From: Laspinema olomoucense D3b
Lineage (GTDB): Bacteria; Cyanobacteriota; Cyanobacteriia; Cyanobacteriales; Laspinemataceae
DNA length: 49,982 nt
Direction of reading: 5' to 3'
NCBI RefSeq assembly: GCF_025370785.1
Contig: NZ_JAMXFA010000046.1
Location: forward strand, 1-49,982
Shown here: positions 10,406 to 18,700 of the stretch, one piece after another
How the letters are laid out: every line of letters begins with the position of its first letter
How positions within the stretch are numbered: position 1 is the stretch's first letter
Notes under the pieces: generated by a model
What the model was told of the DNA's origin: nothing
Seen by the model: only the letters and a program-made list of their open reading frames with translations
Database searches by the model: none
Position numbers and translations under genes: made by a program

Positions 10406-13400
10406 ATGTCATTTGTTGGTTTACATATTCACACCGATTATAGCCTGCTTGATGGCGCCAGTCAGATTCCGCAACTGATTGACAAGGCGATCGAGTTGGG
10501 AATGCCCGCGATCGCCCTGACGGATCACGGGGTCATGTATGGGGCGATCGAACTCATTAAAGTCTGCCGAGGAAAGGGAATTAAACCAATTATCGGCAAT
10601 GAAATGTATGTGATTAATGAACCCTTAGATACAAAAGCCCGTTGCCGTCGCTATCATCAAGTTGTTTTAGCCAAAAATACTCTAGGCTATAAAAATTTAG
10701 TTAAATTAACCACAATTTCTAGTTTAGAAGGGATTCACGGCAAAGGAATTTTTGCTCGTCCTTGTATTAATAAAGAACTCTTAGAACAATATCATGAAGG
10801 GTTGATTGTTACCAGTGCTTGCTTAGGGGGAGAAATTCCCCAAGCGATTCTGCAAAACAAAGTAGATGTCGCCCGAAAAGTGGCGAAATGGTATAAGAAA
10901 CTGTTTGGGGATGATTATTATTTAGAACTCCAGGATCATGGGTCTCAGGAAGACCGGATCGTGAATGTGGAACTGGTGAAAATTGCCCGAGAACTGAATA
11001 TTAAACTGATTGCCACCAATGATTCCCATTTTATCTCGTGCTACGACGTAGAAGCCCATGATGCGCTGTTGTGCATTCAAACCGGCAAGCTGATTAGTGA
11101 AGATAAGCGGATGCGCTATAGCGGGACGGAGTACATGAAATCCGCCGAAGAGATGGCGTTGTTATTTAGAGATCACTTGTCTGATGATGTAATTCAAGAG
11201 GCGATCGCCAATACCCTAGAAGTTGCCAGTAAAATCGAACCCTACCACATTCTGGGCGAACCTCGGATTCCTGATTTCCAATGTCCTCCGGGAGAAACTC
11301 CTAACACCTATGTGGAATGGATTGCCAAAGAAGGACTGAAGGAACGCTTCAAGGTTAAAAGCTACGAAGAAATCCCCCAGGTGTATCGGGACCGACTGGT
11401 TTATGAAGTGGAAATGCTGCAAAAGATGGGGTTTGCGGCTTATTTTCTAGTGGTTTGGGATTACATCAAATATGCACGCGATCGCGGCATTCCTGTCGGT
11501 CCCGGTCGAGGGTCTGCCGCCGGGTCTCTCGTCGCCTATGCCATGCAAATCACCAATATTGACCCAGTACATCATGGACTCCTATTTGAGCGCTTCTTGA
11601 ACCCCGAACGGAAGTCTATGCCCGATATTGATACAGATTTTTGCATCTCTCGCCGGGATGAAGTCATTCAATATGTCACCGAAAAATATGGCAAAGAACG
11701 GGTCGCCCAAATCATCACCTTTAACCGCCTCACTTCCAAAGCTGTGTTAAAAGATGTCGCCCGGGTGTTAGGGATTCCCTACAAAAAATCCGATGAAATG
11801 GCGAAATTAATTCCCGTCGCCCGAGGGAAACCAGAAAAATTAGCAGTGATGATTTCCGATAAATCCCCTGCCCCGGAATTTCGAGAAGCTTATGTTAAAA
11901 ACGAAGAAATACTCCGAGAAGATGGGACAGTAGTCAGATTCCAACAATGGTTGGATATGGCAATTAGAATTGAAGGAACTAACAAAAGTTCTGGGGTTCA
12001 CGCTGCCGGAGTCGTTATTTCTGCCGACCCTTTAGATGAAATTGTTCCCCTCCAAAAGAATAACGACGGTGCAACCATTACCCAGTATCCGATGGAGGAT
12101 TTAGAATCCCTGGGTTTATTAAAAATGGACTTTTTAGGGTTGAAGAATTTAACCATGATTCAGAAAACTCTAGACTATATCAAGGAAACCAAAAATTTGG
12201 ATTTTGACCCTTATCAGTTTCCTTCGGAAGAACGACGAGCACAAGAAGTTCGAGGCAGAGGGGTGAAAAAATTCCCCAAAGATATTGAAAATACCTACAA
12301 GATTTTAGAACGAGGGGACCTCGAAGGAGTTTTTCAATTAGAATCCTCGGGAATGAAACAGATTGTGCAAGAATTGAAGCCTTCCAGTTTGGAAGATATT
12401 TCTTCAATTTTGGCTTTGTATCGTCCGGGTCCGTTGGATGCGGGACTGATTCCCAAATTTATCGATCGCAAACATGGACGAGAAGCGATTCAATATGAAC
12501 ATCCCATGTTAGAAACGATTCTGAATGAAACCTACGGGATTTTATGTTTACCGCAAGGGACGCAGATTAATAAACCTGATGGGTCTACCGTGGCGATCGA
12601 AGACATTCAACCCGGAGACTGGGTAATGACCTCAAATGGTCATCAAGTTTGGAACGCTAAGGTTGCCAAACAATGGCGCAGTGGGTGCAAAGAAATCCTC
12701 AAAATTACCCTCTCTAGCGGGACGGTGATTTATACCAGTAAATCCCACCGATTTTTAACTCCAGAAGGAGACAAAGAAGCGGGGGAATTGAAGGCTGGAC
12801 CTGGAGGATTGAAAAATGCTCATATCTATAGTTCAGTTCTCTATGAACAATGGCCGATTTCTAACAATTCCAAACAGCTTAATGCCAATGAAGCCTATCT
12901 GTTAGGGTTGTTCATTGGCGATGGCAACCTGGTTTCATCTACTCCGAATATTGCTTGTTCGCGAGAAGAAACTGCCCAATATGTGGCAAATCTAATCGGG
13001 TCAACCTGGGGAGGTGAACCGAAATATTATTTCCATACGCGATGCTGGTACGCTTACTCTAAATTCAAGACGCAACCGAAACCGACTCCATTAACCCAAT
13101 TTATGGATGGGTTGTATGGCGGACGGAGTTGGAAGGTGAAATCGCAACAGAAACATTTACCGGCAGATGTGTTGGATTATTGCGAAGGCGATCGCCTCGA
13201 TTTGTTACGAGGTTTATGGGATAGCGATCGCTGCTATCATCCCACCTTATTATTTTTCCGCAGTTCCTCTCCCCAGTTATTACAACAAGTTGGGTTATTG
13301 TTAGGTAGCCTAAAAATCTCTTATGCGGTGTTGGACAATTATGTTTATGTCCTCGATCGCACGCGGTTTAAATCCCTGTTAGGCAAATCTCAACTTCCCG

Positions 13401-14287
13401 CAAAACTGGATGAAGGGATTGTTGACAATTATTTGGCAGTCGCTGCCAATCGGTTTAGCAAATTGCTCACCGAGGCGATCGCCACTACCGATTCCAAAAC
13501 CAGGCAGGCGATCACCACCTCCCTCCAAAATGCCACCCTATTTAAACCCAAAGCATCCCAATACAAACAAAAGTTAGACCGCTGGGACGAATTTTATCAC
13601 CATCTTTATGCAGAAACCTATCTGCAAGATGCCCGCTATGTGTATGTCATGGCAGTAGAAGAGGCAGGCGTCGCCGAATGTTTTGATATTCAAATGGAAG
13701 ACCAATCCTCACCCTATTTTCTAGCCGAGGGCGTGGTTACTCATAATTGCTATCAAGAGCAAATTATGAAAGTCGCCCAAGATTTAGGAGGATATTCCTT
13801 GGGTCAAGCGGATTTATTACGCCGTGCAATGGGGAAAAAGAAACCCGAAGAAATGAATAAACATAGGGAACTTTTTCTGGATGGCGCAACAAAAAATGGC
13901 GTTTCCAAATCCATTGCCGAAAACTTGTTTAATCAGATGCTTTTGTTTGCAGAATATTGCTTAAGCTACGATACGGAGATCTTGACCGTAGAATATGGCC
14001 CAATGGCGATCGGTCAAATTGTAGAAAAGCAAATCCCCTGTACCGTTTATAGTATCGATTCTAATGGGTATGTTTATACCCAGCCTATTGCTCAATGGCA
14101 TCATCGAGGTCAGCAAGAGCTTTTTGAGTATGAACTCGAAGACGGTACAGTAATTCGCGCGACGAAAGACCATAAATTTATGACTGAATCAGGTCAGATG
14201 TTCGCCATTGACGAGATATTTGAGAAAGGATTAGAGTTGAAGCGCGTAGAGGGGATAGAGAAATGGCAATTTCCTACAGCAAGTTAA
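10406..14287 (+). CDS. dnaE: DNA polymerase III alpha subunit, N-terminal part (DnaE-N) with an internal intein and split-intein N-half
   Basis: N-terminal portion of the replicative polymerase. The PHP domain starts at residue 1 ([12 protein letters not shown]). The catalytic acidic pair is in PDIDTDF (residues 406-412), with a further palm motif [12 protein letters not shown] contiguous intein fills residues 714-1114, between ETYGIL and CYQEQIM. After 70 more extein residues ([20 protein letters not shown]) the chain reaches Cys1185, first residue of the DnaE split intein N-half ([14 protein letters not shown]), which runs 109 residues to a stop. The polypeptide must splice in cis once and in trans once to give active DnaE. 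It ends inside the next ORF (25-nt overlap). Host extein length here is about 783 residues. Confidence 0.96.
12545..13747 (+). other. Contiguous intein in DnaE-N with LAGLIDADG endonuclease domain (401 aa)
   Basis: It starts with Cys at [11 protein letters not shown] and ends VVTHN|C before [10 protein letters not shown], so both splice-junction residues (Cys1, terminal His-Asn, +1 Cys) are intact. The block A/B region includes GDWVMTS and SKSHRFLT. Two dodecapeptides, [12 protein letters not shown] and LLRGLWDSD, mark a LAGLIDADG endonuclease with acidic residues in both. Block F is ECFDIQMED. The insertion point lies in a highly conserved polymerase segment. In Trichodesmium, DnaE is also known to carry contiguous inteins besides the split one. 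Confidence 0.9.
13958..14284 (+). other. DnaE split intein, N-terminal half (Int-N, 109 aa)
   Basis: [14 protein letters not shown], then [10 protein letters not shown], then [10 protein letters not shown] (TxxH motif), then [12 protein letters not shown]. It is closely similar to the well-studied Npu DnaE Int-N and about seven residues longer; the extra residues (WQFPTAS) are the part that overlaps the endonuclease ORF. Confidence 0.95.
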
Positions 14288-15063
14288 CACCTCAGTATCG
14301 ACAACAAATTATTGAAGCGTTCCATAAAGGTATGGAATGTCGTGATATTCCTACTTATTTGGAAGTGAGTGAGCGTTCCGTTTCCCGAGTGCTTGCTGAA
14401 GCAGGCATCAATACCAAGCGCAGAAATCGCTATACCCTGAATGAAGGCTACTTCGATGTCATTGATTCTCAAATTAAAGCCTACTTGTTAGGGTTAATGG
14501 CCGCTGATGGTTGCGTTACCTCCACTAACTATGTGGTTTTTGAATCCGTTCAACGGGAATTGGTCGAACTGCTAAAAGCCGAATTACAATACACAGGTGA
14601 AATCCGAGTAATTGATCCTCCTGGTGGTTATGCTTCTCATTACCGCATTAATTTTTCTTCGGAGGGATTAGCGACGGCTTTATCCCGATATGCAGTAATT
14701 GCCGGTCGAGGAATATCCGGCGTTTATTACTTCCCTGAATCAGATTATCTTGGGTCTTACCTCTTGGGGTATTTTGATGGGGATGGTTGTGCGTATGTCA
14801 ATAAAAATAGAACTGGTGGATTGGTTTGTATCGTTGGTTCCCGACCCTTTACTTGTGAGTTAGCCAAACAAGTTGACATGGGTAAAGTTGTGATTCATCA
14901 ATCTCAATCGGTATATTATTGGCGGATTTATAGTCGAACTCATATCCAAAAATTTTATGATTTGGTTTATGCAAAAAATAAATTAGACCCAGACAAAACA
15001 TTTGGACTGCAATATAAAAAGACAAAAATAGAAGAAATTTTAGGGAGTTACTCTCGTGGTTAA
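14263..15063 (+). CDS. Free-standing LAGLIDADG homing endonuclease between the DnaE intein halves
   Basis: A 266-residue predicted DNA endonuclease. The N-terminus carries a helix-turn-helix-like segment (residues 25-50, [20 protein letters not shown]). Two dodecapeptides follow: [12 protein letters not shown] and [14 protein letters not shown], each with the catalytic acidic residue. The ATG has its own Shine-Dalgarno AGAGGGG (14248-14254), 8 nt upstream. The ORF is in a different frame from both dnaE parts (which share one frame), overlaps dnaE-N by 25 nt and dnaE-C by 8 nt, and so looks translationally coupled. It occupies the place where a contiguous intein would carry its endonuclease domain. 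By analogy it would cut an intein-less or endonuclease-less dnaE allele; this is inference. Confidence 0.88.
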
Positions 15064-15163
15064 AATCAAAAGTAGAAAATTAGTCAGCACTCAAGAAGTT
15101 TATGATATTGGCGTTGAACGCGACCATAACTTTATTCTTGAAAATGGGTTAGTTGCTTCTAAC
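15056..15163 (+). other. DnaE split intein, C-terminal half (Int-C, 36 aa)
   Basis: Exactly 36 residues, as in Npu DnaE Int-C. Conserved EVYDIGVERDHNF and a terminal Ser-Asn before the nucleophilic Cys and Phe-Asn of the C-extein. Confidence 0.95.
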
Positions 15164-16570
15164 TGCTTTAATAAATCCCATTCCACTGCCTATGGCTACG
15201 TTACCTATCAAACTGCTTATTTAAAAGCGAATTATCCCGTCGAATATATGGCGGCTTTGCTGACTTCCAATAGTGGGGATCAGGATAAAGTTCAGAAATA
15301 TATCGCCAACTGTCAAGAGTTAAATATCACCGTCCAAGGACCGGATATTAATCGGTCGGGGGTAGATTTTACTCCCGTGGATGCGAATCCAGAAAAGGGA
15401 ACGATTCTGTTTGGATTGTCGGCAATTAAAAATATTGGAGACAATGCAATTCATTGCATTTTGGCAGAACGAGAGGCGAATGGGCCGTTTCACTCTTTGG
15501 CAGATTTGTGCGATCGCATTAATCTACATACGGTCAACAGTCGTGCCTTAGAAGCCTTGATTAAATGTGGGGCTTTGGATGGTCTCAATTCTAACCGCAA
15601 ACAAGCCCTTGAATATATGCCTTTGGCAATTAAATGGGCGCAGGACCGGGCCAAGGAACAAGAAACAGGCCAGCTTAATTTATTTGACCAATTAGCTGTA
15701 ATGACCGAGACTTCGACCTTTGAGTCAGCGCCGGTTCCCCCCAATGTTGCTGATTTTCCCGTGGAAGAAAAGCTGCAATTTGAAAAAGAATTGCTAGGGT
15801 TTTATGTGTCCGAACATCCCTTAAAAAATGCGGGAAGAATTGCCGAACACTTGGGAATAACGGTAGTGAGTTTGGGGAAACTGGATGAACAGAAATCCCG
15901 AACCAAAATTAATGTACTGGTGGTGTTGACGGAAGTTAAACAGATTCTAACGAAAAAAGACGAACGCCGCATGGCCTTTTTGCAAATGGAAGATATTGAA
16001 GGCAAGGCGGAAGCGGTGGTATTTCCCGATACTTATGAACAAGTGCAGGAGTTGCTAATTCCCGATACGCCAATTCTGATTGAGGGGAAAGTCGATCGCC
16101 GGGACGATCGCACCCAATTAATTGTAGAAGAAGCCAAAATTTTGAAATTGGATGAGTTAACCCCACTGCGTCCGGCGATCGCACCGACGAGGATAACGGA
16201 GATGATATTGCTAGAACTGACCACCGATCGCATCAATACCCCTGAAGTGCTCGATCGCCTGAAAGTGCTTTTGGAAGAACATTCCGCAGACAAAACCAAA
16301 GCAACGGTCCCAGCAGTCGCCATCATCGTTAAGTCCGGCGATCGCCATCGCGCCGCTGCCATTTGCGGACCCAATTTTTGGGTCCAGGATTGTCATAATG
16401 TGGTCACAGCCCTCAATTCGGCGGGATTCCCGGCAGTAGTGTATTCTCTTCCTCCCCTGAACGGGATGGGGAATTTACCCCCATTCCCGGACCAGATTCC
16501 GTTTCAACACATTACCGTCCCCTATCTCAACTCGATTCGGTCAATTTTGCAGCAGTTCGATGAGGCATGA
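15056..16570 (+). CDS. dnaE: DNA polymerase III alpha subunit, C-terminal part (DnaE-C) preceded by split-intein C-half
   Basis: The start is GTG at 15056, with AGGGAG (15042-15047) 8 nt upstream. Residues 1-36 are the split intein C-half, ending GLVASN before the +1 Cys of CFNKSHSTAYGYV. The C-extein of 468 residues continues the polymerase: YQTAYLKANYPVEYMAALLTS, a helix-hairpin-helix region (INLHTVNSRALEALIKCGAL), then an OB-fold segment (INVLVVLTEVKQILTKKDER) and a C-terminal domain. Trans-splicing to DnaE-N restores the full alpha subunit. In other cyanobacteria with this intein the C-part is encoded at a distant locus; here it is the third ORF of one operon. No terminator is visible before the downstream repeat. 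Confidence 0.96.
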   Translation: MVKIKSRKLVSTQEVYDIGVERDHNFILENGLVASNCFNKSHSTAYGYVTYQTAYLKANYPVEYMAALLTSNSGDQDKVQKYIANCQELNITVQGPDINRSGVDFTPVDANPEKGTILFGLSAIKNIGDNAIHCILAEREANGPFHSLADLCDRINLHTVNSRALEALIKCGALDGLNSNRKQALEYMPLAIKWAQDRAKEQETGQLNLFDQLAVMTETSTFESAPVPPNVADFPVEEKLQFEKELLGFYVSEHPLKNAGRIAEHLGITVVSLGKLDEQKSRTKINVLVVLTEVKQILTKKDERRMAFLQMEDIEGKAEAVVFPDTYEQVQELLIPDTPILIEGKVDRRDDRTQLIVEEAKILKLDELTPLRPAIAPTRITEMILLELTTDRINTPEVLDRLKVLLEEHSADKTKATVPAVAIIVKSGDRHRAAAICGPNFWVQDCHNVVTALNSAGFPAVVYSLPPLNGMGNLPPFPDQIPFQHITVPYLNSIRSILQQFDEA

Positions 16571-16574
16571 TGGG

Positions 16575-16640
16575 GATAACGACAGCAAGCCGTTACAACG
16601 ACCGGGGAAGGGGATAACGACAGCAAGTCGTTACTACAAA
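16575..16640. repeat. Short dispersed repeat (AACGACAGCAAG family), two units
   Basis: Two imperfect copies of AACGACAGCAAGTCGTTAC follow the dnaE stop; the second continues into TACTACAAAC. Related copies lie at 32894-32922 and 43747-43863. Confidence 0.7.
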
Positions 16641-16655
16641 CTTGCTGGTTTCTCC

Positions 16656-16799
16656 CCCATCTTCCCCATCCTCCCCATCTTCCCCATCCTCCCCATCCTC
16701 CCCATCCTCCCCATCCTCCCCATCTCCCCCATCTTCCCCATCCTCCCCATCTTCCCCATCCTCCCCATCTTCCCCATCTCCCCCATCTCCCCCATCCTT
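16656..16799. repeat. 9-bp tandem repeat (CCCCATCYT) minisatellite
   Basis: About sixteen copies of CCCCATCCT or CCCCATCTT, with occasional 1-nt changes giving CCCCCATCT. The unit is a multiple of three and stop-free in all six frames, which creates meaningless long ORFs. It lies between dnaE-C and the convergent kinase gene. Confidence 0.92.
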
Positions 16800-16801
16800 C
16801 A

Positions 16802-18700
16802 TCACGGTGCCTGCCACAACTTAATCGTCTCATCCCCTGCAGCCGTGGCGAGGGTTTTGCTATCGGGACTGAATGCCACAGCAAAGACGCGATCGCTATG
16901 GTCGGTCAGAGTACAAATCGGCTTACGCTTGCGGATATCCCAGAGGATGACGGTTTGATCCCGGCTGCCACTGGCGAGTAATTTGCCATCGGGACTAAAG
17001 GCGACAGTATTGATCCGTTCAGAATGTCCTGGTAAGCGGGTGATTTGTTCACCCCGACCCACATCCCACAAGACCAGAGTGCCGTCAAAATTGCCGCTGA
17101 CAATGGTTTTGCCATTGGGACTGAAAGCCACGGCATTAACGAGGCCCGAATCGCCGTAGAGGGTAAAAAATTGCTTGCCAGTGTGGACATTCCACAGCAT
17201 CAGGGTAGTGTCGCGACTGCCGGAGGCGAGGGTAATGCCATCGGGACTAAAAGCGAGGGAATAGACCCAGCTTGAGTGGCCCCTAAGCTTGCGAAAGGCT
17301 TTGCCGGTGTAGGGATTCCACAGAATGATTTTCCGGTCCCAACTCCCAGAAGCCAACATGGTCCCATCGGGACTGAAGGCCAGGGCGTCTACTAATTCAG
17401 AATGGCCGGAAAACCATCCTCCCAGGTTCCGAATCCGTTCCCCGGTTTCGGCGTTCCAGAGAATGATACTTTTATCTCGGCTGCTACTAGCCAATAAAGG
17501 AGATACAGGACTAAAGGCGACGGAGAGGACTAAATCGGAATGACCCTGTAGGGTGCCGAGGCGATCGCCGGTGATGGGATTCCAGAGGATTACGCTTTGA
17601 TCTGCGCTACCACTGGCTAAGGTTTTGCCATCGGGACTAAAAGAGATCGCCCAAACCCAACCTTGATGACCTTTGAGGGTGCGGATGCATCTCCAGGCAT
17701 TGGGATCTTCTACCAGGGATGGGGTTGCCGGTGGGGTGGGGGTGGGGACGGTGGGCGGTAAACTTTCCTCTTCTAACGGGTTCAAAAAGGTCGGTCGGTG
17801 GGAATGCAAATCAGCCATAACTTCCGTGACAGACTGATAGCGTTCATTCACTCGGTCCTGCAAAAGTTTCTCTAGGATTTGGGCTAAACGGTCACTTACA
17901 TCGGTCCCAATTTTCCAGAGTCGTTCTCTCCAGATCCATCTTCCCTCCAGGGGGTCGTACAAATCGTCAACCCACTCTCCGGTTAACAATTGAATACAGG
18001 TGACCCCTAGACTATAGAGGTCGCTGGCGGGATAGGCGAGTCCTCCCCGGATCTGTTCTGGGGGCGCATATCCTTCGGTGCCAATGGTGCTCCCGGTGCG
18101 GGCGAGTCCCAGACTGGCTAAATGTTTAGAGATGCCTAGATTGGTCAGGACTAATTCCCCGTTATGGCGGCGGCGAATATTCTCCGGTTTGATATCTCGG
18201 TGAATAATATTGCCATCGTGAATGGTTTTAAACACGGGTAAGAGAAGATCAAGCAGTTCCCAGATTTGGGGTTCTCGGAACGCCCCATGTTGTTCCATCT
18301 CTTCGAGCAAACTTTGCCCGTCGATAAACTCGATCGCCATGTACAGGCGTTTGTCTTGCTCAAAATAATCTAGCAACTGCGCAATCTGCTGATGATCTCC
18401 GAGTGCCTGCCGCCGTTGAGCATCGTGATGGAAGACTTCAATCGCTTTTTCCAGGGTACTACTGTTGTTTGCGGAGGCTTCTAAGCCGGTTTCGATTGGC
18501 AGCAGTTGCTTGATAATGCAGTAACTGTCTTGTTTCTGTTGATCCACCGCCAAAAACGTTCGTTCCATCCCCCCTTCTCCCAGAAGTTGGATGGTACGGT
18601 AGCGCTCTTTCAGCAGCAAATTCGATCCACAACTTAGACAAGTCTGGATATTCGTTGGGTTTTGGGGATTTTGGCAAGCGGGATTTACGCAATAAGTCAT
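16802..18700 (-). CDS. WD40-repeat Ser/Thr protein kinase homologue, probable pseudokinase
   Basis: The ATG at 18700 gives the family N-terminus MTYCVNPACQNP; a GTG lies four codons upstream. Residues 1-30 form a four-cysteine zinc-ribbon-like module (YCVNPAC ... CLSCG). A Hanks-type kinase domain spans about 35-300: glycine loop LGEGGMERTF (third Gly replaced by Glu), IIKQLLP with the ATP-site Lys, catalytic loop HRDIKPEN intact. The metal-binding DFG, however, reads NLG (18134-18142). Seven WD40 blades follow (for example SFSPDGKTLASGSADQSV), enough for one closed propeller. The loss of the DFG Asp predicts weak or no phosphotransfer and a scaffold role. It is the last of four related tandem genes. 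Confidence 0.9.
   Translation of the reverse strand: MTYCVNPACQNPQNPTNIQTCLSCGSNLLLKERYRTIQLLGEGGMERTFLAVDQQKQDSYCIIKQLLPIETGLEASANNSSTLEKAIEVFHHDAQRRQALGDHQQIAQLLDYFEQDKRLYMAIEFIDGQSLLEEMEQHGAFREPQIWELLDLLLPVFKTIHDGNIIHRDIKPENIRRRHNGELVLTNLGISKHLASLGLARTGSTIGTEGYAPPEQIRGGLAYPASDLYSLGVTCIQLLTGEWVDDLYDPLEGRWIWRERLWKIGTDVSDRLAQILEKLLQDRVNERYQSVTEVMADLHSHRPTFLNPLEEESLPPTVPTPTPPATPSLVEDPNAWRCIRTLKGHQGWVWAISFSPDGKTLASGSADQSVILWNPITGDRLGTLQGHSDLVLSVAFSPVSPLLASSSRDKSIILWNAETGERIRNLGGWFSGHSELVDALAFSPDGTMLASGSWDRKIILWNPYTGKAFRKLRGHSSWVYSLAFSPDGITLASGSRDTTLMLWNVHTGKQFFTLYGDSGLVNAVAFSPNGKTIVSGNFDGTLVLWDVGRGEQITRLPGHSERINTVAFSPDGKLLASGSRDQTVILWDIRKRKPICTLTDHSDRVFAVAFSPDSKTLATAAGDETIKLWQAP

Follow-up and report, generated by a model that had tools for sequence, protein, structure and literature searches.

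Introduction

How does a replicative polymerase gene come to lie in two pieces, with the halves of a split intein at the break and a homing endonuclease gene (HEG) between them? The question is raised by a stretch of 49,982 nt from Laspinema olomoucense D3b (contig NZ_JAMXFA010000046.1 of GCF_025370785.1, forward strand), referred to here in its entirety as the window. DnaE split inteins are in standard use wherever proteins are to be joined, and the textbook form is not known to carry an endonuclease. A review describes that form as two genes at different places and proposes a break in a mini-intein as the origin of the split (PMC7765530). In a tree study, the DnaE intein was assumed to have been gained once and lost later (PMC5029880). 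An earlier inspection of the bases, the sequence-only reading, had suggested that the locus holds adjacent split halves in a fractured-gene arrangement and may be an intermediate between a contiguous intein and the dispersed split state.

Results

All features of the locus lie on the forward strand. The upstream gene, dnaE-N (positions 10406 to 14287; 1293 amino acids; stop codon TAA at 14285 to 14287), encodes the PHP domain, polymerase core, and fingers and ends in Int-N, which together with a short tail overlapping the HEG start spans 13958 to 14284. Int-N matches the N half of a solved DnaE intein (4qfq chain A, E 1.1e-46) and keeps Cys1 and an ATKDH block (the block-B T..H). The free-standing HEG, of the LAGLIDADG type (14263 to 15063; 266 amino acids), is in a different frame from dnaE-N. 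The third open reading frame (ORF), dnaE-C (15056 to 16570; 504 amino acids; GTG start), begins with Int-C, 36 amino acids with a terminal Asn and Cys at +1 (15056 to 15163), and continues into the HHH and OB fold regions; Int-C matches the corresponding solved C half (4lx3 chain B, E 3.4e-12). Both solved chains are presumably Npu proteins. Homologous halves, Cys1, block-B T..H, terminal Asn, and Cys+1 identify a DnaE split intein, whose halves are separate ORFs in the window. As the sequence-only reading had described, the three ORFs overlap, by 25 bases (dnaE-N/HEG) and 8 bases (HEG/dnaE-C), and the inner two have Shine-Dalgarno-like sites of their own, read from the bases as AGGGG upstream of the HEG start (14250 to 14254) and AGGGAG for dnaE-C within the final HEG codons (15042 to 15047). 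A purine run like AGGGAG occupies the same place in other loci (16 shown, 15 with the 3' end, the window's included). The frame common to dnaE-N and dnaE-C, also pointed out there, is real in the window but incidental: with dnaE-N as reference, the HEG and dnaE-C frames were (2,0), (1,2), (0,1), or (2,1) across the seven loci compared.

Outside the fractured cassette, and absent from the earlier inspection, dnaE-N carries a first intein that is contiguous and has its own LAGLIDADG domain (12545 to 13747; Intein_splicing 50.3 bits, LAGLIDADG_3 26.1 bits). The dnaE of two other genomes, G006 and G007, gave no match to this intein; in G004, an apparent Int-N match was left out as spurious, being that genome's first intein.

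Relatives were searched for the same order. Strong HEG matches were obtained in 25 genomes, and in 23 of these, representing at least 11 genera and two orders, a related HEG lies between Int-N and Int-C on one contig. In the other two, a contig break falls at or within the HEG, which adjoins Int-N at a contig end (G634) or is in two pieces, each adjoining its own intein half (G546). In this one disrupted gene, a homing endonuclease gene with its own ORF stands between the two intein halves, as in a fractured gene. The position of the HEG is the same in all genera compared, and among the genomes searched, strong matches of its clade occur only at dnaE. No cassette examined has the HEG fused in one ORF to both intein halves.

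Two explanations would reduce the three ORFs to one. A sequencing or assembly error could split a continuous intein-containing dnaE, and the genome is indeed a draft (7.02 Mb, 104 contigs, 99.99% complete), with breaks inside the HEG in a few relatives. However, the same junctions occur in the 23 genomes, on contigs of 4.4 to 7.5 Mb in five of them (G321, G421, G441, G494, and G505), relative frames differ between genera, and a continuous protein would require both junctions to be wrong in every genome. Because the same order with a related HEG is found on one contig in 23 genomes, the arrangement in the window is not an assembly error, and we reject this explanation with near certainty. Programmed frameshifting could instead yield a single precursor, making the intein functionally contiguous with an endonuclease domain, and the overlaps of the ORFs would suit it. 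Yet the relative frames vary, starts and Shine-Dalgarno-like sites are kept, and Int-N ends upstream of the HEG start in several relatives (e.g., G014 and G370); this too is rejected as very improbable. The sequence-only reading had also named a second dnaE as evidence that would count against it. The DnaE core family has one match in the whole genome and the C-half family HHH_6 has two, one above the cut-off; no second dnaE was found by these searches, so the adjacent halves lie in the only DnaE found.

The HEG itself, for which there is likewise one match in the whole genome, matches LAGLIDADG_3 at 43 bits (cut-off 22.5) and consists of a helix-turn-helix-like N terminus followed by two LAGLIDADG motifs (D82 and D174). 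For an AlphaFold2 model (pLDDT 84.4), the 50 solved chains listed as structural matches are homing endonucleases, a maturase, or endonuclease inteins, at modest TM-scores of 0.38 to 0.54. Two motifs, catalytic acidic residues, and a matching fold assign it to the LAGLIDADG homing endonucleases. Both catalytic aspartates are present in all 24 HEG rows; 18 are free of stops, frameshifts, or inserts when read by hand, and 6 are damaged. Its dN/dS is mostly 0.1 to 0.3. Judging by sequence, the HEG is a separate gene for DNA cutting and is probably selfish. It matches PHROG 4645, which comprises phage intron-encoded and free-standing LAGLIDADG proteins (E 7.2e-36), and is about 25 to 30% identical to the phage LAGLIDADG enzymes listed, Staphylococcus phage enzymes among them (20 of 142 records). 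Unlike those enzymes, its clade is confined to dnaE in its strong matches within the genomes searched. A close phage or plasmid source was considered and rejected, as viral, phage, and plasmid searches (the best 80 loci in one, 20 of 142 records in another, and 5 records in the third) gave distant enzymes only, at no more than about 35% identity among the matches listed.

Within single genera, the site is polymorphic. Genus g1 (n = 8) includes 2 fractured, 3 contiguous, and 2 intein-free alleles and 1 genome without a match. Microcoleus (n = 29, including UBA9251, whose record reads Microcoleaceae only) includes 10 fractured alleles, 4 adjacent without HEG, 1 contiguous, 13 intein-free (five called from a single search), and 1 unassigned. 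Genus g63 (n = 10) includes 1 fractured, 2 contiguous, and 3 dispersed alleles and 4 genomes without an intein match, called intein-free from the match pattern alone. Such mixing of intein-free, fractured, and contiguous alleles in three genera is expected of a homing element. Two Microcoleus loci, G425 and G436, had appeared contiguous from a long open frame; stops lie between their halves, and they are counted as adjacent without HEG.

To compare divergence, third-position distances were correlated among 10 HEG-bearing Microcoleaceae genomes (9 Microcoleus, 1 Microcoleaceae). Intein and HEG distances covaried (r = 0.55, p = 0.0006), whereas extein distances followed neither the intein (r = −0.02, p = 0.54) nor the HEG (r = 0.20, p = 0.14); the left and right flanks agreed with each other (r = 0.79). 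In a hand-picked set of 11 genomes, one per genus, r was 0.83 for intein-HEG and 0.34 for intein-extein, with a partial r of 0.81 that none of 3,000 permutations reached. Over all 22 HEG-bearing genomes compared, the values were 0.93 for intein-HEG, 0.82 for intein-extein, and 0.79 for the partial correlation; given this intein-extein value, it is inside Microcoleus and from one genus to another that the signal is independent of the host. G438f, for which the N extein was not available, was left out of the Mantel set. The intein and its HEG diverge together, and at these two levels both follow the host gene poorly, as expected of a mobile element. Single pairs depart from the host gene in both directions: in G370/G441, dS is 0.17 for the intein and 0.22 for the HEG versus 0.60 for flanking dnaE, and in G388/G428, it is 0.45 and 0.37 versus 0.13. 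No co-conversion tract was seen in the Microcoleus dnaE flanks, where net divergence between intein-bearing and intein-free alleles is near zero in every interval scanned.

Remains of the HEG were then sought at Int-C loci. In the three dispersed alleles of g63, dnaE-N lies 1.6 to 2.3 Mb from dnaE-C or on another contig, and all three dnaE-C genes carry an HEG fossil upstream of Int-C, in register, scoring 27 to 33 bits against a maximum of 7.5 in 2,720 shuffles. The dispersed split in this genus thus descends from the fractured form. Among the loci scanned (71 less L270, L291, and L302, where the Int-C start was not located), no fossil was detected in 51 others where Int-C lies 30 kb or more away or on a different contig, in 8 with halves about 6 to 14 kb apart, or in 2 other adjacent loci. 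The four HEG-less Microcoleus loci include one, G420, scoring 5.9 bits, above the 99.9th percentile of the shuffles and below their maximum.

An unrooted intein tree places the contiguous inteins on three branches; its 44 rows include 10 hand-picked loci with no retrieved Int-C, and the extein tree had 43 picked rows. In g1, dS between contiguous and fractured inteins is 0.60 to 0.86 versus 0.34 to 0.41 for host genes, so the contiguous form there is not a recent product of the window's own allele.

Discussion

The anatomy of the locus, its recurrence, the association of the HEG clade with the intein, their joint divergence, low dN/dS, the decay series, and the g63 fossils suggest that the DnaE split intein of cyanobacteria is present here in a form that is both fractured and mobile, with a separate homing endonuclease cistron, a reading to which we assign a probability of roughly 80%. 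A cassette of Int-N, LAGLIDADG endonuclease cistron, and Int-C would be inserted at the DnaE intein site and its three overlapping ORFs translated separately, with Int-N and Int-C associating to give one DnaE by trans-splicing. Homing would proceed by cleavage of intein-free dnaE at the empty site, upon which repair would copy in the entire cassette. Decay of the endonuclease would leave an adjacent split without HEG, from which refusion could give a contiguous mini-intein and separation a dispersed split dnaE.

It is unlikely, but deserves some weight, that the HEG has ceased to drive homing and is carried along passively or has been domesticated, with patchiness due to vertical inheritance and repeated intein loss. 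The genera concerned have many intein-free alleles, a quarter of the HEG rows are damaged, the flanks lack a co-conversion tract, intein and extein correlate over all 22 genomes, and the tree study reads the DnaE intein as one gain with convergent loss (PMC5029880). Against this, intein and HEG distances covary within Microcoleaceae and between genera while the host gene hardly follows, the intein and HEG dS falls well below that of flanking dnaE in some pairs and well above it in others, and catalytic residues and low dN/dS persist. The reverse order, in which an endonuclease gene inserted between halves that had come together from dispersed loci, would account for the many intein-bearing genomes with separated halves among the matches listed. 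It is distinctly less probable still, given the in-register fossils before dispersed Int-C in g63, the constant position of the HEG among the genera compared, and the distance of its listed relatives outside dnaE. The proposal of an intermediate is supported in one direction: fractured to dispersed in one related genus, at the three g63 fossil loci. Contiguous to fractured gains no such support, since contiguous inteins occupy three branches and the G426 linker, by eye and as a hint only, looks like a fused-over intergenic region (G426 dnaE-C has a later frameshift, and the assembly is 84% complete). The arrangement is recurrent and apparently mobile rather than a single intermediate.

Compared with the Ssp/Npu DnaE split intein, the window has the same Int-N and Int-C and a break at about the same place, but its halves are adjacent with an endonuclease cistron between them. 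In full-length inteins with an embedded endonuclease (e.g., PI-PfuI), an intein and a structurally similar LAGLIDADG enzyme also share one site, but the window's enzyme is a separate ORF. The fractured genes of Dassa et al. (2009) likewise consist of two gene pieces, with intein halves on either side of a homing endonuclease gene that stands by itself; they are reportedly phage or metagenome genes with endonucleases of a Vsr-like family. The locus is of this known kind, here with a LAGLIDADG rather than a Vsr-like enzyme and in a chromosomal replicative polymerase gene, and the DnaE case adds successive stages of decay, contiguous forms, and fossils left by dispersal.

More tentatively, and at rather less than even odds, the whole cyanobacterial DnaE split intein may be what is left of a fractured element that was mobile. 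The split would have arisen together with the LAGLIDADG gene between the halves and been spread by it, HEG decay would later have given rise to both dispersed split dnaE and contiguous mini-inteins, and the best known split intein would have been born split, not broken from a resident contiguous one. Our results suggest that a homing element targets the gene of a replicative polymerase on the chromosome, and that the cassettes, decayed remains, joined versions, and empty sites of relatives bear on the origin and spread of a protein-joining tool. Since living HEG-bearing cassettes, intermediates, and fossils coexist, the origin of a chromosome-split polymerase gene becomes directly testable.

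Relatives also supply natural contiguous DnaE inteins. There are two hints, by eye only: the linker of the three contiguous inteins in g1 has an AGGAGT, and G196 and G581 show what may be a one-base scar where the start used to be.

The dnaE locus of the window and its endonuclease

The locus comprises three overlapping reading frames: dnaE-N with Int-N (10406-14287), a free-standing LAGLIDADG homing endonuclease ORF, HEG, of 266 amino acids (14263-15063), and Int-C with dnaE-C (15056-16570). Each window half, Int-N and Int-C, has a match among DnaE intein halves of solved structure. The sequence-only reading had left room for a complete dnaE elsewhere; within the source genome (G000, contig C51; 7.02 Mb, completeness 99.99%), there was no second match to the DnaE core beyond dnaE-N, no second above-cut-off match to the dnaE C half, and no further match to HEG. 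A second intein, contiguous and carrying a LAGLIDADG domain, lies in dnaE-N at 12545-13747; the dnaE genes of the congeners G006 and G007 gave no match to it, which makes this site polymorphic as well. Just 3' of dnaE-C, a long simple repeat (16522-16958) translates as WGRWGG/PILPIFP.

The predicted HEG protein has an HTH-like N-terminus followed by two LAGLIDADG motifs. Its AlphaFold2 model (pLDDT 84.4, pTM 0.77) was compared using Foldseek. The 50 matches listed comprise homing endonucleases, a maturase and inteins that bear an endonuclease; their TM-scores are modest (0.38-0.54). Matches included I-Tsp061I (6.8e-9), E-DreI (4.8e-7) and an I-AniI variant (TM-score 0.52). Both catalytic aspartates are kept in all 24 aligned HEG rows holding those columns; by manual reading, 18 of the 24 have no stop, frameshift or insert, the damaged ones being G001, G321, G435, G441, G468 and G574. 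dN/dS was mostly 0.1-0.3, reaching 0.4 for G421/G441, a pair in which the G441 HEG is interrupted.

Recurrence of the fractured arrangement

When named genomes were scanned using the HEG alignment, 11 loci were recovered, all with HEG between Int-N and Int-C plus dnaE-C; the contig of L055 starts just before Int-N, and the HEG of L063 is interrupted. Names among them include Phormidium pseudopriestleyi FRX01, Microcoleus, Lyngbya, Microcoleaceae and Oscillatoriales. HEG was present in 5 of 386 sampled genomes of the phylum, and a profile search of the order was positive in 28 of 388 sampled genomes: 20 with one match spanning most of HEG, three with HEG in pieces (G441, G468, G546), three with short remnants (G290, G535, G607) and two with distant enzymes not at dnaE (G613, G663). 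The 20 near-complete and three broken HEGs, together with G321 from the phylum sample and the Microcoleaceae genome UBA9251 from the named-genome scan, form a set of 25, in which Int-N, HEG and Int-C share one contig in 23 (11 genera plus UBA9251). The contig of G634 terminates at HEG, and the HEG of G546 is divided between two contigs.

HEG occupies an identical position in 16/16 loci compared, and a Shine-Dalgarno-like site of dnaE-C lies within the last HEG codons in all 15 loci whose 3' end is shown. Reading frames relative to dnaE-N differ among seven loci compared; therefore, a programmed frameshift is not conserved. A group II intron maturase domain adjoins the HEG break of G546 (L246:147-806). 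In the G441 HEG, ~2.5 kb of interrupting sequence (L196:4222-6704) includes an IS66 transposase gene and, by eye, another transposase-like ORF pair.

Mixed alleles and probable mobility of the cassette

Allele states are mixed within genera. The window's own genus (n = 8) has two fractured, three contiguous (a 133-amino-acid intein in one ORF) and two intein-free alleles, and one genome without a match. Microcoleus (n = 29) has 10 fractured (one with an insert within HEG), four adjacent without HEG, one contiguous, 13 intein-free and one not classed, while genus g63 (n = 10) has one fractured, two contiguous, three dispersed and four without an intein match. The Microcoleus assembly G438, counted as fractured, holds fractured and intein-free dnaE contigs together (L201, L202), a sign of sample mixing or of two alleles.

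Distances of intein and HEG were correlated (r = 0.55, p = 0.0006) among 10 HEG-bearing genomes (nine Microcoleus and UBA9251); in this set, flanking dnaE followed neither intein (r = -0.02) nor HEG closely (r = 0.20), and the two dnaE flanks agreed (r = 0.79). Between genera (one hand-picked genome each, n = 11), r was 0.83 for intein-HEG and 0.34 for intein-extein; the partial intein-HEG correlation given extein was 0.81, and 0/3000 permutations were as high. Across all 22 genomes compared, simple correlations were 0.93 (intein-HEG), 0.82 (intein-extein) and 0.89 (HEG-extein), with a partial intein-HEG correlation of 0.79. Silent divergence departed from that of the extein in both directions, being lower in intein (0.17) and HEG (0.22) than extein (0.60) for G370/G441 and higher (0.45 and 0.37 versus 0.13) for G388/G428. 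Counting against mobility, no co-conversion tract was found in Microcoleus dnaE flanks. From these comparisons of sequence, the cassette looks mobile. The fractured DnaE intein is real and recurrent, probably mobile, and of the fractured-gene kind; overall, we give this explanation a confidence of about 80%. Among the papers listed by full-text literature searches, none announced HEG between DnaE intein halves or a natural contiguous form; an earlier report of either may exist.

HEG decay, contiguity and dispersal

The sequence-only reading proposed an intermediate between contiguous and dispersed inteins. HEG decay is visible in Microcoleus: G420 retains ~45 bases from the 3' end of HEG ahead of Int-C (HMM score 5.9 bits, above the 99.9th percentile of shuffles and below their maximum), G425 and G436 have short stop-containing gaps with ~16 such bases, and G427 has no more than a few bases of each HEG end. 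The G426 intein is contiguous, with a linker resembling, by eye, a former ribosome-binding region and Int-C start; its dnaE-C has a frameshift further downstream. Between the adjacent halves of G066 lies a Uma2 putative nuclease gene rather than the LAGLIDADG HEG (L176:4777-5451), perhaps a replacement.

On the unrooted intein tree, from which contiguous G581 is absent, contiguous inteins fall on three branches. G002, G003 and G006 group with G000 and G001 (100/95), contiguous G196 groups with dispersed G290 (99/96), and G426 is placed without support. A fractured allele may have become contiguous in G426, and also at other loci; the usual view, contiguous to fractured, is neither shown nor excluded.

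For the dispersed state, all three dispersed dnaE-C loci of g63 (G290, G535, G589) carry an in-register HEG C-terminal fossil terminating at the Int-C start, scoring 32.5, 29.4 and 27.3 bits; the highest of 2,720 dinucleotide shuffles reached 7.5. When their last 38 bases were removed, scores were 10.2, 11.2 and 7.4 bits versus a shuffle maximum of 8.1, and in DNA alignment the fossils plainly resemble the intact HEG of congener G651. In G290 and G535, Int-N is on the same contig at distances of 1.6 Mb and 2.3 Mb, respectively; in G589 it is on a different one. No such fossil was found in any of 51 further loci whose Int-C is at least 30 kb away or on a separate contig, nor in eight with dnaE halves ~6-14 kb apart. 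A change from fractured to dispersed is well supported in g63, where the fossils offer direct sequence evidence that dispersed split dnaE, in this one genus, descends from the fractured form. Among listed ORFs adjoining the G535 and G589 fossils, no transposase was seen by eye; a DDE transposase gene lies near that of G290.
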